Of a DNA stretch of 63,603 bases, positions 38,224-50,847 are shown in pieces. Each line of letters starts with the position of its first letter. Within the stretch, counting starts at the first letter, position 1. Below the pieces are notes generated by a model that saw nothing but the letters and a program-made list of their open reading frames with translations, did no database searches and was not told where the DNA came from. The stretch comes from Pseudobdellovibrionaceae bacterium. GTDB taxonomy: Bacteria; Bdellovibrionota; Bdellovibrionia; Bdellovibrionales; JAMPXM01. The stretch is taken from positions 1 to 63,603 of the forward strand of contig CANHQR010000015.1 in the NCBI GenBank assembly GCA_947462815.1. The letters run 5' to 3'. A program made the position numbers and the translations under genes.

Positions 38224-39459
38224 ATGAAGCTGAAACGGCAAGAGGATTTGAATTGGGGAAGATTCGGAGCCATGCTTGCTCTGACGATTGCAGCTACTCC
38301 AATCTGGTGGATGCAGTCGGGCGCGCGCGAGTTTCTTTTAAGCGGAGCCGCTGAACTTTGCTGGCCGGGATTTGACTCGTGCGCTGAGTGGCGTTTCGTA
38401 TCGCTTCGGCAGATTGACTTCGTCCTGATTTCAATGGGCGCCGGAGCGATCTTTTCATCGATTTGCTTGTGGTTGAGGCCAGCCAGTCGGCTCTCGTTTT
38501 GGAGTCTGGCCGTGGTGTTTGTCGCAAAGCTTTTGCTTTCAGCGCTGGATTACCGGTTGCGTGGCAATCATCACCAGATGGCGAACTTGGTAACTTTGAT
38601 TTTTCTCATCTTACCTCGGTCGGCAGGCGTGCCCATTTTCGCGTTGCTGATTCCTAGTTTTTATTTTGCAGCGGGTCTCCTGAAGCTGAATACCGAGTGG
38701 TTATCTGGAGCGGCGCTCGCAAACCGCTTACCGCTCAGTGGTTGGCTGCTGGAGTTTGGTCTGATCGGCGTTGTGCTCATGGAGTTGATAGGAATCTGGT
38801 GGCTTCTCGATCGCCGCCGGAGCCCATGGCGCTTTTGGGTTGTTATTGTGGTTCTCGTTGTATTCCATTTGGTGTCGATAAAATCTGTTGGTTTTTTCTA
38901 TCCTGTAGTCATGGCGGCCTTAGTATCCTGTTTCCTCTGGCAACATTTGGACTGGCCATGGCCTAAGAACGAAGCCAAAGAGGCCTTCCCCAGGTTCTTC
39001 AAATCTCCGTTTCAGTTTTGCAGATCAATTTGGGTCGCGATGAGCTGGCAGTTTAAACTTGCATGGCTAATCAGCTTAATCTTCTTAGGGATCCAATTTA
39101 TACCGGCGTCCATTTCCCCGCGAAACGACCTGAGCGGTGAAGGACGTCTAATCGCATCCAGCATGGTTCACAATCGGACCGAGTGTCGTGGGTTTATGGT
39201 TGGAAGATGGGGAGTTCACGAAGCAAAAATTCCTATGCCAGTGATGCAGTTGCCGATTCGGATCTGGTGTGATCCGCTCGTGTTCTATAATTACGCGCGA
39301 CTGGTTTGTCGGCAGAAGTCTCCGGATCGACTGGACTGGTATTTGCTGTCGCGCAACTCTTCTGAGGAAGCTTACCAACTCATCATACGCGCTGAAGACT
39401 TTTGCCGAGACTCTCGAAGATTTCCTTGGTTCGGTTCGCTTCCATGGAGGGCCGAATGA
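38224..39459 (+). CDS. HTTM-like multi-pass membrane protein
   Basis: A 411-residue protein with about eight membrane helices in the first ~310 residues and a C-terminal exported-type domain of ~100 residues with Cys. The block IPSFYFAAGLLKLNTEWLSG is close to the HTTM (vitamin-K-dependent carboxylase-like) family, as is VFHLVSIKSVGFFYPVVMAA. True HTTM catalysis is not shown and the C-terminal part (ECRGFMVGRWGVHEAKIPMP) is unknown. The ATG at 38224 lies behind a weak ribosome site. It overlaps the next gene by four bases. The DNA here reads as AT-richer than in the housekeeping blocks on either side. Confidence 0.65.
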   Translation: MKLKRQEDLNWGRFGAMLALTIAATPIWWMQSGAREFLLSGAAELCWPGFDSCAEWRFVSLRQIDFVLISMGAGAIFSSICLWLRPASRLSFWSLAVVFVAKLLLSALDYRLRGNHHQMANLVTLIFLILPRSAGVPIFALLIPSFYFAAGLLKLNTEWLSGAALANRLPLSGWLLEFGLIGVVLMELIGIWWLLDRRRSPWRFWVVIVVLVVFHLVSIKSVGFFYPVVMAALVSCFLWQHLDWPWPKNEAKEAFPRFFKSPFQFCRSIWVAMSWQFKLAWLISLIFLGIQFIPASISPRNDLSGEGRLIASSMVHNRTECRGFMVGRWGVHEAKIPMPVMQLPIRIWCDPLVFYNYARLVCRQKSPDRLDWYLLSRNSSEEAYQLIIRAEDFCRDSRRFPWFGSLPWRAE

Positions 39460-39959
39460 GGCTACTCGTCGAAATAGTCCTTGGATGCGTTTTGTTGTTC
39501 TGTTGCCTTTCAATACGGTGGCCAACAGGTCGGGCCGAACCTCCGCGCGAAGGCATGGGCCTAGTTAAGTTCAACCTCGAGGAGTCATCGAACTCGCCGT
39601 CAAGCTCAGCCCGCTGGACTAAGATTGACGATAAAAGCTACCGGCTGCTGATTCGCGAGACCGCCGGAGGGCGTGAAATCGCAGCTGCGACACTTTCTTG
39701 GTTGGAAGAGGGCAAGATTTTTACGAGCGAACAAGGGGACCTCTTGATCTACCAGTCTTCTCAGATCTGGAGTCGCGATCGTTCAAGATGGCGAGCATGG
39801 ATGGTCCGAGATGGATGGGCTGTGGAGTCTGCGACCTGGAAGAAGGGTTTGAGTGATGGGTTTTGGGAACTGATTTGGAAGAAAATGAGTCAAGATGGGA
39901 ATTCCCGCCAGGAGAGAGAGTGGCGAAACAGAGATCTAGAACGTGTTCATGGGCCCTGA
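39456..39959 (+). CDS. small exported hypothetical protein
   Basis: A 167-residue protein. Signal peptide MRLLVEIVLGCVLLFCCLSI with RWPTGRAEPP after it; no lipobox. The rest is a small, mixed domain (YRLLIRETAGGREIAAATLS, WRAWMVRDGWAVESATWKKG), ending in a charged tail. ATG 39456 overlaps the HTTM-like stop (ATGA). A faint likeness in RWPTG and in VKFNLEE to the N-terminus of the next protein (RWPTGYV, VKFSLKEE) may mean shared origin. It precedes the first large exported gene by 33 bases. Confidence 0.6.
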   Translation: MRLLVEIVLGCVLLFCCLSIRWPTGRAEPPREGMGLVKFNLEESSNSPSSSARWTKIDDKSYRLLIRETAGGREIAAATLSWLEEGKIFTSEQGDLLIYQSSQIWSRDRSRWRAWMVRDGWAVESATWKKGLSDGFWELIWKKMSQDGNSRQEREWRNRDLERVHGP

Positions 39960-39992: not shown

Positions 39993-42140
39993 ATGTCGAC
40001 GGCGCTTCATGACCGACGAATTCAGGCCCGAATGATAGGTTTTATTCTGACCCTAGTCTTCACTACTTTCTGGGTTATAGCAGTCGATGCAGCTCCTATC
40101 TCAGAAAACTGTCCTGCAGCTTCTCGATGGCCAACGGGCTACGTCACGCTGTTTCGAAGTTCAGACGTTATTGAGGGTTTAAGAATTGAGGATGATCATG
40201 CGATCGGTTATGGGTTAGTAGATCTGGTTAAGTTTTCTCTTAAGGAAGAGCAATTTCATAATTCCCCCCCACAGCCTAAGCCTTTGGACATAAAGAAAGA
40301 GCTGAGCTACGGATCGTTCCGGTTCAAAACTCTCAGAGAGAGTTTCGGACCTGGTTTGATGTTGGTGGAAAACGTATCGCATATTTGTGTCTCAGTTCCC
40401 AGGCGGGCTCGCGAAGATCGAGAAGTCTGGTCCGACCTTGAGGTCTTTCATCTGAAACAGGATCAGGATTTTTGCTCCGCGAAAGGCCCGAGCCCGGCGC
40501 TTCACCCTGCAACTCAAAGGCTTTTGAACTTCGGCGCTCAGTTGACTGGCCCTGCGAGTTTCCGAGCTGACCGAGATCTTGAGTTTCTCCTCCGTTTGTT
40601 GGCGCAGCCCGAGGCTCGTCGACTGCACACTGAGCGTCCTGAAATTTTTGAGGCTGTTCTCCAGGGTGTGTTGTTTCATTCCAATTTTCTTTTTGCTGAG
40701 CTCAGCCGGCGCCATCCTTGGTTAAGTGAGGGCTTCGGCTACGGCTATCAGTTCGATTATAAGGCGCGGCAATATTGTAGAAATGTAGCGAACGAGGCTC
40801 TGGCATTACGCAGTACGAGTGATTTCATCGATGCTTGGGGTTCGTCCATCGCTCATCGACGAGACTTAAAGATTCAAGACTTCAAGTTCCTTTACCCGAT
40901 CTTCGGAGTACTCAGGCAAGTTCTTCCCACTCATGGCGAGGATCGGCTTAACTTTTTAGTTTCGAAAATTCTGCAGCCTCTTGCGAACTCTGCAGTCGAC
41001 CATCCGGCGACCAAGATTTACTGGCGATCGGTTTCTTTTCAGCTCTTAGAGAAGCTGATCAAATCTTGGTTTGAGGGAACTGAATGGTGGCCTGAGCGGA
41101 CTGACTTAGTCGCGACTAAGTATCGCAAAAATTTAAGATTTGATCTCGTCGGCAACTTTCCATTTTCGGAGAAATCAAAGCCCAACGCTTTCGGTTTCTT
41201 TGTTGAGCCACGTTGGACACTCACTATTCCCAAGCAGACCGCCGACGGTGAAGTCCTTGTCGATCGGGTGACCCAATGGCGTCAGCGCCGGACTCCTATC
41301 AAAGCGCACACTCGCGTGGTCGCTGAGAATCAACTAAGACATATACCGCGCGAGCGACACGATCACGTATCAGCTTTTGCGGACGGAGCATTTGACGTTG
41401 TCGTTGCGACCATGAGTTACGGACCTGAGCGCGACCTCAAGCTTTTGGAAGAGCAAAAAGCTTTTTACTCGGAATTAGGATTCAAGTCTTGGCGCAAAAC
41501 CCGAGATGAGCAAGCACCACAAAGCTTTCAGAGGGGTATTGAAAGTGGCGAGTGGGATGTACTACTTAAGCAAGCCCATTCGGCCGGCGATTTGGTGAAT
41601 CTCATGTGGATTGGCCAGGAGGGAGATTGGTGGCGAGCCGAGCGAATTCGAGCGGACGGGCGAACGGATCGGGTACATTTGTTCGTGCCTGAGATCAGTA
41701 AAAAAAGTTCGAAGTTTTGGATCAGCCTCGAAGCTTTTCGCAATTGGGTGAAAAATCGCGAAGCAGCGACTGCGCGCGAGTTGGTGTGGATCAACTTGTC
41801 GTGCAACTCCGGTGCAAAAGCCGTCCGAGAAATTCAAGCTGTTAATTCAGGTGTATTTGTTCCAATTGCTTCTGTTGGCCGTGTCGAGCCCTTGCAGCGA
41901 TCGCAAAAGCTTGGCCTTGAGCAAGTACCATTGATCATGGGATTACTGGACGGAAAAAGCTTTGCAGAAATTCAGGAGAGTCTTAATTTAAAGCGCGCCA
42001 TAGCGGGGCCTGGCACTGAGTTCGCCTTCCCCAATGATGCCAATCTCATCCGCAACTTGCGGCTTTTTGGTCAACGATCCATCAGAATTGACCAAGTGGT
42101 TTCTAACCCTAGGTCGAACAGCGGACACATGGGCTACTAA
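39993..42140 (+). CDS. large exported protein, paralogue A
   Basis: A 715-residue exported protein of no recognised family. A signal peptide (IGFILTLVFTTFWVIAVDAA) is followed by a mature chain that shares over its whole length many exact runs with the protein encoded at 42873-45038, for example HPWLSEG, DLVGNFPFS and WINLSCNS. Candidate functional residues are an HDH pair near residues 456-458, followed by VVVATMSYG, and a conserved LSCNS Cys at 604 (VWINLSCNSGAKAVREI). Their order recalls the His and Cys of clan CD (caspase/CHAT-like) peptidases, but this is weak. Conserved Trp and Asp/Glu fill the middle. ATG 39993 has GGAG eight bases upstream. It is convergent with a small exported gene at 42270. 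Confidence 0.8.
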   Translation: MSTALHDRRIQARMIGFILTLVFTTFWVIAVDAAPISENCPAASRWPTGYVTLFRSSDVIEGLRIEDDHAIGYGLVDLVKFSLKEEQFHNSPPQPKPLDIKKELSYGSFRFKTLRESFGPGLMLVENVSHICVSVPRRAREDREVWSDLEVFHLKQDQDFCSAKGPSPALHPATQRLLNFGAQLTGPASFRADRDLEFLLRLLAQPEARRLHTERPEIFEAVLQGVLFHSNFLFAELSRRHPWLSEGFGYGYQFDYKARQYCRNVANEALALRSTSDFIDAWGSSIAHRRDLKIQDFKFLYPIFGVLRQVLPTHGEDRLNFLVSKILQPLANSAVDHPATKIYWRSVSFQLLEKLIKSWFEGTEWWPERTDLVATKYRKNLRFDLVGNFPFSEKSKPNAFGFFVEPRWTLTIPKQTADGEVLVDRVTQWRQRRTPIKAHTRVVAENQLRHIPRERHDHVSAFADGAFDVVVATMSYGPERDLKLLEEQKAFYSELGFKSWRKTRDEQAPQSFQRGIESGEWDVLLKQAHSAGDLVNLMWIGQEGDWWRAERIRADGRTDRVHLFVPEISKKSSKFWISLEAFRNWVKNREAATARELVWINLSCNSGAKAVREIQAVNSGVFVPIASVGRVEPLQRSQKLGLEQVPLIMGLLDGKSFAEIQESLNLKRAIAGPGTEFAFPNDANLIRNLRLFGQRSIRIDQVVSNPRSNSGHMGY

Positions 42141-42184
42141 GATGAACTTAGATTTGCCGTATTCAATATCTTCAGGGCTCTACC

Positions 42185-42230
42185 GAGGACTGACCGGCAG
42201 GGCCCCACAAATCGGTCGAGCTAAGTCCTC
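42185..42230 (+). terminator. stem-loop between convergent genes
   Basis: GAGGACT and AGTCCTC pair at the base, with an inner GACCG/CGGTC pair, giving a long hairpin; only two T follow before AACTTT. It lies between the stops of the large and small exported genes and probably ends one or both transcripts. Confidence 0.5.
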
Positions 42231-42269
42231 TTAACTTTGAAAATTCGGTCATGGCTCGGTCGATGGTGT

Positions 42270-42605
42270 TTAATCGCCTCCGTAGAAGCGGTAGCCACCG
42301 CAGGAGGGTGAGGGGCAAGCCGCTTGGCCGCGTTGATAGCCTGAGTTGTAACCCTCGCGATGGCCTTGTTGCCGACCCAGGTTGTGCATTTTTTCCAGCA
42401 ACACAGGCTGGTTGCTCGTCACATTATCGAGGGACTTAAGACAACTTTGGAGATCTTCGGCGGGAGTCTGCGCCGGTAAACGCGAACAATCGATTTTTGC
42501 CGTTGCATTTTGGTCGGAAGCAGCTTCAGAAGCATGCGCGTAAACTGCCGTGCAGAAGCTTCCGACGAGCATTGCGGCGAAAATGTAATTGGTCAGGGAC
42601 TTCAT
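42270..42605 (-). CDS. small exported Gly/Tyr-rich protein, paralogue A
   Basis: A 111-residue exported protein. The signal peptide is SLTNYIFAAMLVGSFCTAVY with AHASEA. The mature part has KIDCSRLPAQTPAEDLQSCL, a helical linker, then GRQQGHREGYNSGYQRGQ and an end in YRFYGGD. It shares KxDCSRLPA.T, the second Cys in CL, EK..xxGR..G..EGY..G and terminal YGGD with the protein at 45133-45441. ATG 42605 has AGAGGTG upstream; a GTG six bases earlier is possible. It is convergent with the large exported gene. No known family. The Gly/Tyr tail suggests a surface or secreted fibre-like part, by appearance only. Confidence 0.75.
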   Translation of the reverse strand: MKSLTNYIFAAMLVGSFCTAVYAHASEAASDQNATAKIDCSRLPAQTPAEDLQSCLKSLDNVTSNQPVLLEKMHNLGRQQGHREGYNSGYQRGQAACPSPSCGGYRFYGGD

Positions 42606-42872
42606 AGGCACCTCTCTTGTTTAATGTTAGCGGATCTAATTTCTCGATTTTTCTGTTCCAGTTGGCAATTCATGGAAGGAGCAAGTTCAGGACCACTTGC
42701 CAAACTTTTTGCTGGAGCTGAGAATCGTAAAGGGGAGTGATTGCCAACGAACGCTGACGACTGTCTATAGTTTTGACACCGCCTTTGGTTCACGATGGGC
42801 CATTCGACTTTTATCTTTGGGTTAAATACGGTCGTAAGAGTTTGAGCGCGGAGGGGTTTGAGGAGTCGCCCT
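42606..42872. promoter_or_regulatory. divergent region between unit A small gene and unit B large gene
   Basis: 267 bases separate two divergent starts, so promoters of both must lie here. No clean -35/-10 pair stands out on either strand. The ribosome site of the plus gene (GAGGAG) is at 42861-42866. I see no other gene. Confidence 0.3.
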
Positions 42873-45038
42873 GTGCGGAGGAGGTGGATCATCGGCATCG
42901 CAAGGTCACTGCATTACGTTTGGGAGTTGATCTACGTTGGGCTTTTGATGCTGCCTATGCCAGCTTTGGCCAAGCCGCTGCCCGGACTGGGAGACGCAAT
43001 CCCCGCAGCGGGCTGTGCTATTTCGCAGATGTGGCCCGATGGTTATGTGGCCCAGGGCCGAAGCCTTGAAGCGCTCCAAGGCTTGCGAATTGTGGATGGA
43101 GTCGTCGAAGTCTACGGCTCCCGAGATCTGCTCAAGTTCTCAATCTCAAAAGAGAGCTTTGACCGCACGGACCCGCAGCCGGCACCTGCCAATTTGCAAA
43201 CCCAACTCAATCATGGAAAGTGGAGCTTTCGAATATTTCGGGAGAGCTTTGGGTCCGGTGTTGTTTTGGTTGAGAAACGAAGTCAACTCTGTGTCGTCAC
43301 ACCCAAGCCAGCTGCGGAAGATCAAGAAATCTGGGATGATCTTGAAGTCTTTCATATCAAGCGAGAGCAGGACTTTTGTGAGGCCAAATCACCAAGTCCA
43401 ACCTTGCATTCGGCAACGCAACGGCTTCTCAACTTTGGAGCTCAGCTCGAAGGTCCAAATCGTTTTCAAGCCGAGCGAGATCTTAGGTTCCTGCTCCGAA
43501 TTCTAGCCCAGCCCGAGGCTCGCCGGTTACATCGAGAAAATCCTGATTTTTTCGAGGCCGTTTTGCAGGGGGTTTTACATCAATCAAATTTTCTTTTTGC
43601 GGAAATCAGCCGACGCCATCCTTGGCTGAGTGAAGGCATGGGTTATGGGTATGTCATGAAGTACCGGCCTCGCCGTTATTGTCGGAACCTCGCTAATGAA
43701 GCGCTGGCTCTACAAAGTGCGATGAACTTCGTTGAGGCCTGGGGATCAGCTATTGCGGATCTTCGAGACCTGAAGCTAAAAGACTTTTATTTTCTTTATC
43801 CGAGCTTCGGCGTTCTTCGACACATTCGCGGCGATACACTCGATTATTTGGTAGCCAAGATGTTGCAGCCAATTTCAAATTCGGCCGAAGTCCATCCAAG
43901 CACGAAGATTTATTGGCGATCGGTGTTGTTTCAGTTGATCGAGATGGTGGTCAAGTCTTGGTTTGAGGACACTGTCTATTGGTGGGAGCGCACAGATCTT
44001 GTCGCGACAAAGCAAGGAGAGGCGTTGCGGTTTGACTTAGTCGGAAACTTTCCATTTTCAAAAAAGTCGAAGCCTAACGAATTCGGACTCTTCATCGAGC
44101 CGAGCTGGACTCTACCCATTCCTGCGCAGACTACAGATGGGCAAGTCTTGGTTGATCGCGTGACGCGGTGGCGTCAGCTTCGCACCAAGTTTACGGCGCA
44201 AACGCGAGTCGTCGTCGAGGATCATGTTCGACATCTTGCTCGGGATCGTCACGACCACAGCACCGCCTACGGTGACGGCAGTCTCGACATCGTCGTGGCC
44301 ACCATGAGCTATGGAGCGAAAGGGGACGTCAAGCTGACGGAAGAGCAAAAGGCCTTTTACACAGAGCTTGGCTTCACGTCCTGGAAGAAATCGCGCGATC
44401 TTGAGGCCCTAAAGAGCTTTCAGCAAGGCATCGAAAGCGGTGGGTGGGACATATTATTGAAGCAAGCGCATGCCGGGGGAGACTTGGTCAATCTCATGTG
44501 GATCTCTAAAGAAGGGGAATGGTGGCGAGCTCAGCGCCGCCGAGCCGACGGTCGTTTGGATCGCGTCCATCTCTTTGTTCCAGATGAGATCGCCTCGGGA
44601 GGGACGACCATGATTAGTCTCGAGTCTTTTAGAGATTGGGTTCGTCGTCGCGAAGCGCTTCATAAGCGCGAGTTAGTTTGGATCAACCTGTCTTGTAATT
44701 CGGTTGCGAAAGCCGTTCGAGAGATCCAGGCGGTGAATTCGGGGTTATTTGTGCCCATCGTGTCGGTACGTCGTGCTGAACCTCTGGATCGGAGTCGCAA
44801 ACTTGGCCTTCAGCAGGTGCCGCTCATGCTGGGCTTGCTCGACGGCAAGAGCTTTGTGGAAATTCAGAGGGATGTCGAATTGACGAATCGAACAGCGGGT
44901 TCGGGCTTGAAGTTTGCCTTTCCCAACGATGACATTCTGGTGAAAAACTTGGGACTATTCGGCGGGCGCGCCGTTCGTGTCGATCAGAGTGTGACCACGG
45001 CGAGATCCGGTGGAGAGCAGGTCTTTATGGGGTATTGA
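42873..45038 (+). CDS. large exported protein, paralogue B
   Basis: A 721-residue exported protein, paralogue of the 39993-42140 product and collinear with it. Signal: HYVWELIYVGLLMLPMPALA. Shared blocks include AISQMWPDGYVAQGR, LVEKRSQLC, LLNFGAQL, DLVGNFPFSKKSKPNEFG, the HDH pair near residues 460-462, and VWINLSCNSVAKAVREIQAV with Cys near 608. Conservation of these candidate residues in both copies argues for function. GTG 42873 has GAGGAG seven bases upstream; a TTG at 42858 is the alternative. It is followed by a terminator at 45061-45096 and by a convergent small exported gene, the same layout as unit A. Confidence 0.8.
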   Translation: MRRRWIIGIARSLHYVWELIYVGLLMLPMPALAKPLPGLGDAIPAAGCAISQMWPDGYVAQGRSLEALQGLRIVDGVVEVYGSRDLLKFSISKESFDRTDPQPAPANLQTQLNHGKWSFRIFRESFGSGVVLVEKRSQLCVVTPKPAAEDQEIWDDLEVFHIKREQDFCEAKSPSPTLHSATQRLLNFGAQLEGPNRFQAERDLRFLLRILAQPEARRLHRENPDFFEAVLQGVLHQSNFLFAEISRRHPWLSEGMGYGYVMKYRPRRYCRNLANEALALQSAMNFVEAWGSAIADLRDLKLKDFYFLYPSFGVLRHIRGDTLDYLVAKMLQPISNSAEVHPSTKIYWRSVLFQLIEMVVKSWFEDTVYWWERTDLVATKQGEALRFDLVGNFPFSKKSKPNEFGLFIEPSWTLPIPAQTTDGQVLVDRVTRWRQLRTKFTAQTRVVVEDHVRHLARDRHDHSTAYGDGSLDIVVATMSYGAKGDVKLTEEQKAFYTELGFTSWKKSRDLEALKSFQQGIESGGWDILLKQAHAGGDLVNLMWISKEGEWWRAQRRRADGRLDRVHLFVPDEIASGGTTMISLESFRDWVRRREALHKRELVWINLSCNSVAKAVREIQAVNSGLFVPIVSVRRAEPLDRSRKLGLQQVPLMLGLLDGKSFVEIQRDVELTNRTAGSGLKFAFPNDDILVKNLGLFGGRAVRVDQSVTTARSGGEQVFMGY

Positions 45039-45060
45039 GTCCGAAGGCCTCTGCTTGTCC

Positions 45061-45096
45061 AAAAAAAAGCCCCGCCGCGACAGCGATCGCGGGGCC
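45061..45096 (-). terminator. Rho-independent terminator
   Basis: On minus, GCCCCGC pairs with GCGGGGC around a 13-base loop and is followed by eight T (45068 to 45061). It ends the small exported gene 45133-45441 and may also stop the convergent plus transcript. Confidence 0.9.
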
Positions 45097-45132
45097 TTTC
45101 AGAAATCGCTAGTTTAGACTCGACTATTGAGA

Positions 45133-45441
45133 TCAATCGCCACCGTAACCACCGGAGTACCCCGAAGAGTAACTTCGGCCCGCTCGATAACCTTCCTCCA
45201 AGCCTGAGCGTCGACCATCGGCGAAGGCCTTCTCCGCTTTAGTTTGGCTCGAAGCCTGCTCGGATCGAAGCGCTTGGAGGCAAAGCGTGAGCTGCTCGTT
45301 GCTGGTGTCCGCTGGCAATCGCGAGCAGTCGAGCTTGGCTACTTCGGCCTTTTGAGCCTGATCTGCGGCTTGCGCGATACCCGTCGTCATTGAGGCACAG
45401 GCGAACAATGCAGCGAGCGTGAGTTTTGTCAGAGATCTCAT
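45133..45441 (-). CDS. small exported Gly/Tyr-rich protein, paralogue B
   Basis: A 102-residue exported protein. Signal: TLAALFACASMTTGIAQAAD, cut near AQA|AD. The mature part has KLDCSRLPADTSNEQLTLCL, then EKAFADGRRSGLEEGYRAGR and a YSSGYSGGYGGD end. It is a paralogue of the 42270-42605 product; both keep two Cys, the EGY..G motif and the YGGD end. ATG 45441 has AGGAAG upstream and the terminator at 45061-45096 downstream. It is convergent with large paralogue B. No family recognised. Confidence 0.78.
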   Translation of the reverse strand: MRSLTKLTLAALFACASMTTGIAQAADQAQKAEVAKLDCSRLPADTSNEQLTLCLQALRSEQASSQTKAEKAFADGRRSGLEEGYRAGRSYSSGYSGGYGGD

Positions 45442-45938
45442 AAAACTTCCTTTCTATGTTCGATTCCCATGTTCGATTCCCATCGGAGTCAGACCCAAGA
45501 ATCGTAGTTGATCGTTTCGATTTCGATGTCGCCATCGACAAGGCTCGAAGAAGCAAAGGCGAGACCAGTGGGCCGAAGTTTAAACTGCTTCTTAGGACTG
45601 ACAGGCAAGATGTGGCCCAATCGGGCCAACGCCTGTTTAAGAGTTCGACGACACGCTCAACAGGTTTTCGCTTAAATTTTAAGCTCCCATCAAGGCATCT
45701 CGAGTGAGTTTGGGAAGGCTGAGTGCGCGGTGGGGCTTGACAGGGCAATTGGGAGACCGATGATAATCGCGAGCTGGGCCGAAATGATAAATCTGAATGA
45801 TTTCGCGAGCGTGAAGACTTCACCCGCGCGGTCCAGCCAAATGAGTTTCCGATCTGAAATTGATGAATTTGAGAATGTGATCAGTCAGTTTGAATTTCAG
45901 CTGTGAACCAGCTGAGAGCTCAGAGGAGGAATGCGAAA
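45442..45938. other. 497-base intergenic region with direct repeat
   Basis: Between the small exported gene on minus and the ABC operon on plus lies a tandem direct repeat of 13 bases, ATGTTCGATTCCC, twice at 45456-45481, next to the minus-strand start. Promoters for both genes are expected; I cannot place them with confidence. The open frame on minus from 45823 has no sign of being a gene. Confidence 0.4.
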
Positions 45939-46976
45939 GTGTCAGGTCAAGTTGCTTCGTCCACACCATCAGCAGGTTCGGCGCAGAAGTCCTCAACATC
46001 CACCGCTCCCCTCATGATCGAGGTCAAGGGCCTCCGCAAGAGTTACGGTCCCATCACCGCGATTCGGGATATCAACTTCTCGGTGCGAAAAGGGGAAGTG
46101 GTCGGGTTCTTGGGGCCCAACGGCGCAGGTAAATCCACCACGATGAAGATCATCACCGGGGCGATGGCGCCGACGGATGGTTCCGTCAAAGTTTCCGGCT
46201 ACGATGTTTTTGAAGATCCCATTGAGGTCAAAAGGCGCATCGGCTATCTGCCGGAGAATCCGCCCGTCTACAGCGAAATGAACGTCGAAAGCTATCTGCG
46301 CTTCGTCGCTCAGTTGAAGGGTGTCGCAGCCGCGAATGTGGGCGTGCAGGTGGAACGAGCCATCGAGAAGACAGATTTGGGAAGCGTTCGTCGCCGCCTG
46401 ATCGCCAATCTCTCAAAAGGCTTCCGCCAGCGCGTGGGAATTGCCCAAGCCTTGGTTTCGAATCCCGATGTTTTGATTTTGGATGAACCGACTTCGGGCC
46501 TTGATCCTCGTCAAGTTGCGGAAGTGCGCTCGTTGATTCAAGAACTCAAGGGCGAGCACACCATTATTCTCTCGACCCACATCCTTCCTGAAGTGCAGGA
46601 GATGTGTGAACGCATCATCATTATTAATCGCGGGCAAATCGTCGCGGAGGACTCGCTCGCGGGTCTGACGGAACGCATGCAGCACTCGCGGAGTGGTTTG
46701 GAGGTCAGTGTTCGATTGGCTCGGCCCTCAGAAGCCGTGACGCGGGCTCTGAGCGATGTGGCCGGTGTATCAAGTGTTCGCTTGGACGCGGGCATTTATA
46801 AAGTCCAACTGTCGGTGAATCAATTGGACGCCGTCGAGAAATTGGCCGAGGCGGCCGTTGCCACGCGAGCCGGGCTTTTGGAGCTTCAGCATCAGGCCTT
46901 TGATCTCGAAGACATCTTTCTCAAACTCACAGCGAATGATGATCAGGCCGCCGTTGCGGCAGGGGGTGCGCAATGA
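45939..46976 (+). CDS. ABC transporter ATP-binding protein, GldA-like
   Basis: A 345-residue ATPase of an ABC-2 type exporter. Walker A is GFLGPNGAGKSTTMKIITGA, Q-loop region IGYLPENPPVYSEMNVESYL, signature LSKGFRQRVGIAQALVSNPD and Walker B VLILDEPTSGLDPRQ, with switch His in IILSTHILPEVQ. It has a ~25-residue Ser/Thr-rich N-terminus before the domain and a C-terminal regulatory part after it. GTG 45939 has AGGAGG ten bases upstream. The four-gene order ATPase-permease-auxiliary-DUF4340 matches the Gld-like exporter clusters known in several phyla; substrate unknown. Confidence 0.88.
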   Translation: MSGQVASSTPSAGSAQKSSTSTAPLMIEVKGLRKSYGPITAIRDINFSVRKGEVVGFLGPNGAGKSTTMKIITGAMAPTDGSVKVSGYDVFEDPIEVKRRIGYLPENPPVYSEMNVESYLRFVAQLKGVAAANVGVQVERAIEKTDLGSVRRRLIANLSKGFRQRVGIAQALVSNPDVLILDEPTSGLDPRQVAEVRSLIQELKGEHTIILSTHILPEVQEMCERIIIINRGQIVAEDSLAGLTERMQHSRSGLEVSVRLARPSEAVTRALSDVAGVSSVRLDAGIYKVQLSVNQLDAVEKLAEAAVATRAGLLELQHQAFDLEDIFLKLTANDDQAAVAAGGAQ

Positions 46977-47752
46977 AGTCGTGGATTCGTGGCACATGGG
47001 TGCTGGCCGCTAAGGACTTGCGGAATCTCTTTTTGAGCCCGCTGTTTTACATCATCACCGGACTTTGCACCATTGTGTGGACCCTCGTTTACTTTTTGTC
47101 GCTGCAGGAGTTCGCGAGCCAAGCGACGATGGCACAATTCGGCGGCCCCCAGGGTGGACCAAATTTGCACTTCGTGGTGTTCGCGAAGCATGTCTCGATT
47201 GTGAACTTGGTGATGATTTTTGCGGTGAGCGCGCTCTCCATGCGTCTGTTCACCGAGGAAAAGCGGGCCGGCACCATGCCGCTTCTGCTGACTTCGCCTG
47301 TGTCGGCGACGCAGATCACCCTCGGTAAATTCAAGGCGGGTGTTGCGGCGGCCTGGGCGCTGCTCGCCATCTCGGCCGTGTATCCCGTGAGTTTGGCAGT
47401 TTACTCCAGCATTGAGTGGGGGCCTTTGGCGACGAGCTATCTGGGGCTCATGCTGGTGGTGGCCTGCTACGTCGGTGTCGGAATGTTCGCCTCGAGTCTC
47501 ACCGACAACACCGTAGTCTCAGTCATTATGGCATTGATTTTAAACGTGCTTCTTTGGTTTGTGGGCGCTCTGTCTGAGGCCTCGCCGGGCGGTGCGGCCA
47601 ACGCCGTGTTCGAGCACCTGAACTTCGGAGCTCATTTCGTCAACTTCATCAAAGGCTCATTGTCGGTGGCTAGCATCGTTTTCTTTGCTTCCGTCATGGC
47701 TTTGGCCGTTTTCCTCACTCAGCGCGTGGTTGAGTCGGCTCGTTGGAGGTAA
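46973..47752 (+). CDS. ABC-2 permease, GldF-like
   Basis: A 259-residue permease with six membrane helices. LRNLFLSPLFYIITGLC, the EEKRAGTMPLLLTSPVSATQ motif that couples to the ATPase, and the end ASVMALAVFLTQRVVESARW are typical. It overlaps the ATPase gene by four bases (ATGA) and is followed by the auxiliary gene after one base. The long first periplasmic loop has an Asn/Gly-rich stretch (QFGGPQGGPNLHF). Confidence 0.9.
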   Translation: MKSWIRGTWVLAAKDLRNLFLSPLFYIITGLCTIVWTLVYFLSLQEFASQATMAQFGGPQGGPNLHFVVFAKHVSIVNLVMIFAVSALSMRLFTEEKRAGTMPLLLTSPVSATQITLGKFKAGVAAAWALLAISAVYPVSLAVYSSIEWGPLATSYLGLMLVVACYVGVGMFASSLTDNTVVSVIMALILNVLLWFVGALSEASPGGAANAVFEHLNFGAHFVNFIKGSLSVASIVFFASVMALAVFLTQRVVESARWR

Positions 47753-47753
47753 C

Positions 47754-49271
47754 ATGCAGAAGTTATCGCGTTTTGCTTTGCTGTTCTCTGGACTCTTTGC
47801 GGTTGCGGTCGTCGTCGCCCGAATCATCTTGGGCGGTTGGCACGAGGCGATGTGGGTGCCGCTGGGCCTTTCGGTGTTCTTTTTCTTCTTTGGAGTCTTC
47901 ACCAATTGGCGAATGATGCTCGACTTCTTCATTCTGAAAACCACCAAGCACGGCATGAATATGGGAGTGCTGATTCTCACCTTCTTGGTATTGCTGGTGG
48001 TGGTGAATTTCCTCGCCGTGAGCCAAGACAAGAAGTGGGACTTCACATCGGAAGGTTTGAACTCACTTTCCGAACAATCGATTAAAGCCGTCCAGTCGCT
48101 GACCGCGGATACGGAACTCGTGTTTTTATTTCGTCGAGGCGAGGGCGATGAGCAGAATCGGCGAATGACTCAGGACTTGGCGAACATGTACACAGCGGCT
48201 GGTCCCAAGCTGAAGTTCAAAATGCACAATGCACTGGAGCGACCGGATTTGGCCAAACAGTTGGAGTTCACTTCGGGTCAGTTCGGACTCTTCCTCGTGC
48301 AAGGGGAGAAACGGCAAAAGGTCGAGCAGATCACCGAGGAAGAAGTGACGCGAGCTCTGCTCAGACTTTCGAAAGAGAAACGCAAGAGCATCTACTTTAC
48401 AGTCGGTCATGGTGAAGCTGATTTGAACGGTCGAACGGCCGAAGGCTTGGCCATGCTCAAACGCGACTTGGAAAGTTCGTACGAGGTAAAAACTCTCGAG
48501 CTCTTTAAAGACACCAAAGTTCCGGATGATGCCGAACTGGTCGTCGTCGCGGGTCCCCGCCAACGGTTTTTGCCGGCTGAGGCCGATGCCCTCTTTGAGT
48601 ACGCGAAGCGCGGTGGCAGCTTGATTCTCGGCTTAGATCCCGATGCGGAGCACGGGCTTGAGGGCTTGGTGAAAAAATTCGGAATCGAGTACCAAGGCAA
48701 CTTCGTTCTCGATCCTCGGGCGATGATTCCCGGACGCGGGAACGTGGCCGCTCTCGGCACGAACTTCTCTTCCACAGCGGAAGCAACACGCCCTCTCACG
48801 CAGGGTTATGCCGTGTTCATGCTGAGCTCGGCAGTCAATAAATCGCCCGATGCTCCGCAGGATTTCCGCTTTGACGATTTGGTGAGAACTGATGAACGAG
48901 CGATTGGGACACCCTCGCTCGAGATGGCCAATCGAATGCAGCGACCCGGACCCCACACTCTCATGCTGAGCGCCAAGGGAAAGTTACCGGGTGCGGAGAA
49001 AGAGTTTGAAGTCGTCGTGGCGGGTGACTCGGACTTTATGCGCAATGAAATGTATCGCGGCAGCCTCAATCGCGATTTGGCGACCAACATGGTATCGGCT
49101 CTCGCAAAAGATACGGACTTGGTTTCGATCAAACCGAAGATGCCCAAAGGCACTGCACTGTATGTGACGAACACTCAGCTGATGATCATTTTGTTCGCCT
49201 TCTGTTTGCCTGTGCCGATTTTGTCTTTCTTCATGGGTGGATTCTTGTGGTGGCGACGCAAGTCGGCGTAA
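47754..49271 (+). CDS. ABC auxiliary membrane protein, GldG-like
   Basis: A 505-residue protein of the ABC_transp_aux type found with GldA/GldF-like exporters. N-terminal membrane helices (FGVFTNWRMMLDFFIL region and MGVLILTFLVLLVVVNFLAV) precede a periplasmic domain with GHGEADLNGRTAEGLAMLKR and VVVAGPRQRFLPAEADALF, and a last membrane helix (MIILFAFCLPVPILSFFMGG) with a basic end. ATG 47754 has GGAGG three bases upstream. It is translated next to the permease gene. A mechanical or substrate-capture role is inferred from family context. Confidence 0.88.
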   Translation: MQKLSRFALLFSGLFAVAVVVARIILGGWHEAMWVPLGLSVFFFFFGVFTNWRMMLDFFILKTTKHGMNMGVLILTFLVLLVVVNFLAVSQDKKWDFTSEGLNSLSEQSIKAVQSLTADTELVFLFRRGEGDEQNRRMTQDLANMYTAAGPKLKFKMHNALERPDLAKQLEFTSGQFGLFLVQGEKRQKVEQITEEEVTRALLRLSKEKRKSIYFTVGHGEADLNGRTAEGLAMLKRDLESSYEVKTLELFKDTKVPDDAELVVVAGPRQRFLPAEADALFEYAKRGGSLILGLDPDAEHGLEGLVKKFGIEYQGNFVLDPRAMIPGRGNVAALGTNFSSTAEATRPLTQGYAVFMLSSAVNKSPDAPQDFRFDDLVRTDERAIGTPSLEMANRMQRPGPHTLMLSAKGKLPGAEKEFEVVVAGDSDFMRNEMYRGSLNRDLATNMVSALAKDTDLVSIKPKMPKGTALYVTNTQLMIILFAFCLPVPILSFFMGGFLWWRRKSA

Positions 49272-49290
49272 AGCGCGTGGAGGGTTGAAG

Positions 49291-50847
49291 ATGGGTTCAG
49301 GACAAAAATCATCGCGCAAGTTTCCGATGACGCCCGTGTTCGTAGCTTTGGTCGCGGGACTGGCGACTTGGACTTATATCTCACAGTACAAAGGGGCTGA
49401 GGACAAAAAGCGAAACGAGGAGCAGTCCAAGGCGCTCTTGCCGTTCTCCAACAAGGACGTGGATCGAATTGAGCTGACTCGTCCTCAGGGGCGATTGGTG
49501 CTGGCGCGTGACGCCAAAGGCTGGCGCATGCTGGAGCCTCTGCAGGATCTTGCCGATGAACAGGCCATCGATCAGCTGCTTTCGAGCCTGACCGTCGAAA
49601 AAGTGAAAGAGACCGTGGTGGAGGCCGAAGATATCGCATGGACGACCTTTGGGTTGCACGAGCCAACGCACAGTGTGCTCGTCAAAACATCCAAGGCCGA
49701 GCGGCGATGGAAGATCGGCTCAGTGAGGGCCTACGACGGCGAACTCTACGCGCGGATCGGCGATGAGAATAAAGTCGTACTTCTCGGCGGCGTCCTCCTG
49801 GCTCCGATGGAGAAACCTGCCAAAGAACTCCGCGATCATCGACTTTTTCCGGTGGACTCTGGCTCGCTTCATCCTGCGTTTACACGGGTCGCATTGAAGA
49901 CACCGAGTCGAAGCCTTGAACTAGAAAAGTCCGAGGGGACGTGGAATCTGAAGTCAGATGCGACACCGACTTGGCCGCTCGAGGAGCGTAAGGTCACCCA
50001 GCTGATCGACAGCGTGACTGCACTTCGAGGCAACGAAGTTTTGGCCGAGGACGCCAAAGCGGCAGCCGCTGTGCGCGCACATCGTCTCAATGGACCCAAG
50101 GTGCTGGTGAAGCTGGAAGCCCCTGAGGCTGATGGTCGGGCAGCGGCTCGTTATGAAGCCACGCTGATTATTCCGGGGACCCAAGACGCTCACTTTGCGG
50201 CCACATCGTCGGCGCGACCACAAGTCTTTCAGCTCACTAAAGCGCAACTCGATCGTATTCATGTGGACGCCGATGAACTTCGCGATTTGAAGTTCCCGTT
50301 CACGTACCAGCTCTCCGATGCGGCCCGCGTGGAGTTCGTCTCGACGAAAAGTTCTATGCCTTTGCCGAGCCTCAAAAAACAAGACGGGCGATGGGTTTTG
50401 GAGTCCCGGCCCGAGCTTTGGCCCCAACATGAGTTAGATGTCGCGAAGGTGGACTCGATCCTCTCCGAGATTCAACAACTCGAAGCGGTGCGCGTGGAGA
50501 GCCGATCAGCCAAGCTACCTCAGGCAGGTGACTTGGGTGCGATCAGCGTGAGGATTTCGGCCACCGATGGCCGCGAGTTGTGGTCGGGTGTTTTCGCAAT
50601 TGAGGCCGCAGGGGGCGGGAATACGTCGAAGAAGCATAATGGTCATCAGCATGCCGAGGAAGAGGATCTTGAAGGAGGGGCTTCGCAGAGTCTTGTCGCC
50701 ACAAGTTCGCGTGTGCCGGGCAGAAAGTTTTTGTTGAGTAGCGCGGCTCTCGATAAGCTGAAGTTCGAGCAGGTGATGAAGTCAAAGGCCCCCCCCGCGG
50801 CAACTTCCTCGCCGGTTCCCATTGAGAAAACTGCGGAGAAGAAATGA
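49291..50847 (+). CDS. DUF4340 domain protein
   Basis: A 518-residue membrane-anchored protein. An N-terminal helix (TPVFVALVAGLATWTYISQY) is followed by DUF4340 repeats: DVDRIELTRPQGRLVLARDA, VEAEDIAWTTFGLHEPTHSV, and WKIGSVRAYDGELYARIGD, and similar blocks later (VDSILSEIQQLEAVRVESRS). A His/Glu-rich insert (KKHNGHQHAEEEDLEGG) near residue 450 could bind metal. ATG 49291 has GGAGGG seven bases upstream. It is the fourth gene of the Gld-like cluster and overlaps the GHMP kinase gene by four bases. Confidence 0.88.
   Translation: MGSGQKSSRKFPMTPVFVALVAGLATWTYISQYKGAEDKKRNEEQSKALLPFSNKDVDRIELTRPQGRLVLARDAKGWRMLEPLQDLADEQAIDQLLSSLTVEKVKETVVEAEDIAWTTFGLHEPTHSVLVKTSKAERRWKIGSVRAYDGELYARIGDENKVVLLGGVLLAPMEKPAKELRDHRLFPVDSGSLHPAFTRVALKTPSRSLELEKSEGTWNLKSDATPTWPLEERKVTQLIDSVTALRGNEVLAEDAKAAAAVRAHRLNGPKVLVKLEAPEADGRAAARYEATLIIPGTQDAHFAATSSARPQVFQLTKAQLDRIHVDADELRDLKFPFTYQLSDAARVEFVSTKSSMPLPSLKKQDGRWVLESRPELWPQHELDVAKVDSILSEIQQLEAVRVESRSAKLPQAGDLGAISVRISATDGRELWSGVFAIEAAGGGNTSKKHNGHQHAEEEDLEGGASQSLVATSSRVPGRKFLLSSAALDKLKFEQVMKSKAPPAATSSPVPIEKTAEKK

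Follow-up and report, generated by a model that had tools for sequence, protein, structure and literature searches.

An old tandem duplication of a large and a small exported protein, the large one from a new exported family of probable caspase fold

Introduction

Most discussion of caspase-type enzymes in bacteria treats them as proteases of cell death or defence that act inside the cell. Secreted cysteine peptidases that are co-encoded with a small inhibitor are represented by the staphopain/staphostatin type, in which the enzyme is papain-like and the inhibitor stays cytoplasmic. Clan CD, which includes the C14 caspases and metacaspases, C13 legumain, C11 clostripain and C25 gingipain, rests on a structural definition that does not require sequence resemblance among its families (PMC12445089). 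In caspases, as described by McLuskey and Mottram, beta3 and alpha3 are separated by a small three-stranded sheet, and beta3 and beta4 carry the His and the Cys, respectively, at their C-terminal ends (PMC4357240). Some bacterial metacaspases combine a propeller with the caspase domain, and a widely distributed form of these also contains NACHT (PMC3501461).

Here we analyse a two-gene unit that occurs twice in a contig of a Pseudobdellovibrionaceae bacterium (CANHQR010000015.1; the window is the whole stretch of 63,603 nucleotides). The duplicated pair is real and old, and its large protein represents a new exported family that probably folds like a caspase and recurrently has a small neighbour. 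A preliminary description of the same DNA had offered three readings of the pair: enzyme and cognate partner, effector and inhibitor, or surface fibre components. The first of these fits best, and as a whole the data are best explained by exported caspase-fold cysteine hydrolases that work with a small exported protein, a reading to which we assign a probability of about 0.6. As in the staphopain/staphostatin type, the gene of the putative enzyme adjoins a small-protein gene; unlike in that system, the large and the small protein are both exported, and in relatives the partner gene usually lies upstream.

Results

The order of genes on the window is L1, S1, L2, S2, such that large and small genes alternate and the small ones are convergent. 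L1 (39993..42140, plus strand) encodes a 715-residue exported protein that matches the profile of the family described below. Its paralogue L2 (42858..45038, plus strand) has 726 residues if counted from the TTG at 42858, which starts the longest frame, or 721 from the in-frame GTG at 42873; this GTG, with GAGGAG seven bases upstream, is at least as plausible a start. The small paralogues S1 (42270..42605, minus strand, 111 residues) and S2 (45133..45441, minus strand, 102 residues) have the ribosome-binding-like sequences AGAGAGGTG and AAAGGAAG, respectively, directly 5′ of their ATG codons. The ORF list places all four reading frames at, or a few bases from, where the preliminary description had them, and by inspection each protein starts with a Sec-type signal peptide. 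L1 and L2 are 64% identical across 686 residues (E 0.0) and S1 and S2 38% identical across 90 residues (E 3e-15): the duplicated unit is real, far beyond chance. The genome has no third copy of either gene. Between L2 and S2 lies a GC-rich hairpin with A/T tracts (45060..45100), possibly a two-way terminator for the convergent genes; a terminator-like match on the minus strand (45086-45072) comes from a scan that yielded no more than shuffled sequences did.

Codon comparison of L1 with L2 gave a pS of 0.82 and a pN of 0.25, third codon positions varying most, and comparison of S1 with S2 gave a pS of 0.68 and a pN of 0.46 (dS 1.8, dN 0.71), which is a coding signature for the small ORFs as well. 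Synonymous sites have reached or almost reached saturation, whereas the proteins are conserved; the tandem duplication is therefore old, and all four genes were kept. The duplication seen in the preliminary description thus stands, as an old event and not a recent one. Judged by these rates, both kinds of protein have stayed under constraint, the large more than the small.

Neither L1 nor L2 has a sequence match in Pfam, NCBIfam, PADLOC or the PDB, and the same searches returned no usable match for S1 or S2; the preliminary description had likewise recognised no family for either. Calmodulin matches trace back to a D/G-rich stretch and seem spurious. Pattern scans of genome contigs found no relatives, and a plasmid search gave no match. 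A whole-genome search found distant relatives of the large protein, first within the same family and order and then, patchily, in 29 of 369 genomes and 24 of 182 genera of the phylum. The relatives are mostly exported proteins of 780-1100 residues, in which the C-terminal 350 residues are best conserved; in several, a beta-propeller at the N-terminus is recognisable from WD40 matches, with E-values of 2e-25 (L062) and 1e-8 (L058) and weaker signals in others. At about 720 residues the window copies are shorter and have no propeller match. At two loci (L033 in genome G119 and L035 in G133) the large gene overlaps at its 3′ end with the gene of a 450-residue protein; these two proteins are related, and one matches DUF2891 (E 1e-10).

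Many of the relatives have a small exported neighbour of their own. Clustering of neighbouring genes revealed related small ORFs at five loci, immediately upstream of the large gene and on the same strand. A profile made from nine such proteins found two further members beside large genes, one of them downstream rather than upstream, and phylum-wide this small protein adjoins a large gene at 11 loci in 10 genomes. It has about 80-120 residues, with two invariant Cys and, by inspection, a signal peptide. Its gene often overlaps the 5′ end of the large gene, an arrangement suggestive of translational coupling. As the profile was seeded largely with adjacent genes, the adjacency is not fully independent evidence; its least circular part is the five-locus cluster together with the downstream case. 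About 20 of the 31 large-gene loci carry no small partner of this type, some of these loci being cut by contig ends. One genome (G327) has two large genes on different contigs (L056 and L063), each with its own upstream small partner. In seven genomes of one bacterial family (L101-L107) the two-Cys protein stands alone, with no large gene beside it, and mostly has a basic C-terminal tail.

The small protein of the relatives is not that of the window. It has no member in the window genome, and comparison by hhalign detected no relation that would make S1/S2 a diverged form of this protein. No S1/S2 homologue was found beside any other large gene, and a phylum-wide profile search of 369 genomes returned weak partial matches, none of them convincing; a match of S2 to HdeA (E 1.2) was too weak to use. 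The expectation that the same two-gene layout would recur in other genomes was therefore not borne out for S1/S2 specifically, and with S1/S2 lacking relatives, this exact pair is known from this genome only. The partner half of the enzyme-and-partner proposal accordingly holds in part: the 10 other genomes do place a small exported two-Cys protein next to a large gene, and it is a different protein. The place of this partner, upstream of the large gene, is taken in the window by a 167-residue exported protein (39456..39959, plus strand) that ends 34 bases before L1; it has no sequence relation to the relatives' partner and no convincing relative in the order.

What suggests that S1 and S2 would be cognate partners of L1 and L2 is their retention in this one genome. 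Both contain the motif K-x-D-C-S-R-L-P-A with a second Cys 15 residues past the first (KIDCSRLPA..SCL in S1, KLDCSRLPA..LCL in S2, two Cys in each), and both end in YGGD. Both also contain a GxxxG run, with Gly at each fourth residue five times in S1 (shuffle p 0.00015) and four times in S2 (p 0.005).

The strongest competing explanation accepts L1 and L2 as caspase-fold cysteine hydrolases and regards S1 and S2 as unrelated small envelope proteins that were caught in the tandem duplication and have hitch-hiked since. We consider this a serious contender, at somewhat below even odds. It would account for the absence of S homologues beside other large genes and from the 369 genomes, as well as for the faster evolution of S (pN 0.46 versus 0.25 for L) and for its opposite direction, which precludes a common transcript with L. 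It sits less easily with the conservation of the signal peptide, the two Cys, the GxxxG run and the YGGD end in both S copies despite near-saturated synonymous sites, and with small exported two-Cys neighbours being a feature of the wider large family.

For the large protein, we read residue conservation from a 29-row family alignment. In the conserved domain one column is almost always His (28 of 29 members, in the motif D-Y-x-x-K-E-A-H-S-D-G-D) and one almost always Cys (27 of 28, in L-x-Y-x-N-x-S-C-W-S); neither residue is conserved in a second column. The candidate catalytic residues in these columns, all with checked codons on the plus strand, are His529 (QAHSAGD, 41577..41579) and Cys604 (NLSCNS, 41802..41804) in L1, and His538 (QAHAGGD, 44469..44471) and Cys613 (NLSCNS, 44694..44696) in L2. 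The sole exception to both columns is the propeller-bearing L062 (ORF 4794-7625 on contig C114 of genome G271), which reads SRSDGD and SGYWS, with Arg and Tyr in place of the candidate His and Cys. Such a joint loss is as expected of a functional or catalytic pair in a protein turning pseudoenzyme, and L062 is likely to be one; pseudo-variants that have lost His and Cys are known among bacterial orthocaspases (PMC6426788, PMC3501461).

We then turned to predicted structure. An AlphaFold model of the L1 C-terminal region based on 29 sequences was confident, with a pLDDT of 88.7 and a pTM of 0.86 (a whole-length run with five sequences was poor, with a pLDDT of 46.5, and was not used). In the model, residues 366-715 form a beta domain of five N-terminal strands followed by a caspase-like domain with the order beta1-alpha1-beta2-alpha2-beta3-His-antiparallel strands-alpha3-beta4-Cys-alpha4-beta5-helices-beta6, which is the order found in caspases (PMC4357240). 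In this prediction the His and then the Cys follow directly on beta3 and beta4, the places that they take in the mainly parallel sheet of clan CD. The top Foldseek match in the PDB was caspase-3, with a probability of 0.89, an E-value of 0.008, TM-scores of 0.30 and 0.41 and a large rmsd; the other 49 matches listed had probabilities of at most 0.54, and no fold match reached E < 0.001. In the viral library a C14 caspase-domain protein ranked third.

Sequence comparison linked the family to none of the peptidase families tested. None of the 29 members has a Pfam peptidase match; no window protein or relative scored over the cut-off for C14 (MEROPS, PF00656), no member of the large family did so for C25 (MEROPS, PF01364), and the window genome has neither C14 nor C25. 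No CHAT domain was found in 144 sampled genomes of the phylum. Against C14 and C25 peptidases of the phylum, hhalign gave probabilities of 4.5% and 0.4%, neither of them significant, though beta1-alpha1 was aligned in both comparisons. L1 and L2 thus share with clan CD the predicted strand and helix order, the small sheet that separates beta3 from alpha3, and the placement of His and Cys, and differ in having no detectable sequence or profile similarity, HSxG and Ser-Cys in place of the classical His-Gly and Ala-Cys motifs, a His-Cys spacing of 75 residues versus about 42-49 in caspase-7, PmC11 and MARTX-CPD (PMC4357240 numbering), and an extra N-terminal beta domain. Propeller-bearing relatives resemble the bacterial metacaspases and orthocaspases with WD40 in joining a caspase-type domain to a WD40 propeller (PMC3501461, PMC6426788); unlike these, the large family is exported, has its propeller at the N-terminus and has no Pfam C14 match, and the window copies are propeller-less.

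On the strength of the model, L1 and L2 would act like, and probably fold like, a clan CD peptidase, outside every named clan CD family tested, and probably represent a new exported family of caspase-fold (clan CD-like) cysteine hydrolases, presumably peptidases. The same comparisons bear on a second alternative, in which the domain is a Rossmann-like binding module whose conserved His and Cys serve as a metal site, a redox centre or a structural contact instead of a hydrolase dyad. Among the matches listed, many of those below the first are Rossmann dehydrogenases with similar E-values, and the large family has no significant sequence link to peptidases, both of which speak for this alternative. 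Against it, the succession of beta3, His, extra antiparallel strands, beta4 and Cys is the clan CD arrangement, and L062 lost both residues jointly; we regard it as unlikely. What favours the enzyme half of the enzyme-and-partner proposal is thus the presence of a conserved His and Cys in a fold predicted to be caspase-like.

Discussion

In the mechanism that we favour, L1 and L2 would be exported (periplasmic or secreted) cysteine hydrolases of the caspase/haemoglobinase fold, most likely endopeptidases, in which His529/538 would activate Cys604/613 and the Cys would attack the substrate bond. The N-terminal beta-propeller of the relatives, absent from L1 and L2, would probably present substrate or partner. 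The enzyme would work with a small disulfide-capable exported protein, which would be the two-Cys protein in many relatives, and in the window lineage the unrelated S1/S2 may fill this role. Such a partner would most likely restrain or assist the enzyme during export, as an inhibitor or as a prodomain supplied in trans; effector plus inhibitor, the second proposal of the preliminary description, is a possible reading of L and S. Only tentatively would we extend this to a general system of control outside the cytoplasm, in which exported caspase-fold proteases each have a dedicated small exported protein that some lineages have swapped for an unrelated one, with two specific pairs in the window.

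It is improbable, in our judgement, that L1 and L2 are caspase-like in fold and act as transamidases or ligases, joining peptides to the surface or to peptidoglycan with the small protein as their substrate. Clan CD does include ligase activity, in legumain (PMC9604545), and a small exported partner with a Gly/Tyr-rich YGGD end in both S copies would suit such a role; the small partner of the relatives, in contrast, has no Gly-rich tail. We consider very improbable the idea that S1 and S2 are RiPP precursors or surface fibre subunits: apart from the Gly/Tyr-rich end, it draws on a weak match of S2 to the GrrA/OscA1 cyclophane RiPP model (19.9 bits against a cut-off of 31, E 9e-4), whereas S1 gives no RiPP match, no radical-SAM gene was found among the flanking genes scanned, and a FliH match of S made through the GxxxG run indicates that matches of this kind look compositional. 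As to the earlier suggestion of surface fibre components, nothing supports it for the large protein, and for S the Gly/Tyr tail leaves it faintly plausible.

An exported family of this kind, sometimes with a propeller and often with a small exported protein encoded next to it, would suggest that caspase-like proteolysis takes place in the envelope or extracellularly. It also gives proteins without an entry in public family libraries a function that can be tested. The natural pseudoenzyme and the two paralogous pairs provide material for establishing who works with whom, and interest in the system would rise if interaction of the pair or enzyme activity were shown. Directly after the duplicated unit, the window carries an ABC transporter operon of the GldA/GldF/GldG kind (45903-50847), with ABC_tran, ABC2_membrane, ABC_transp_aux and DUF4340 domains.
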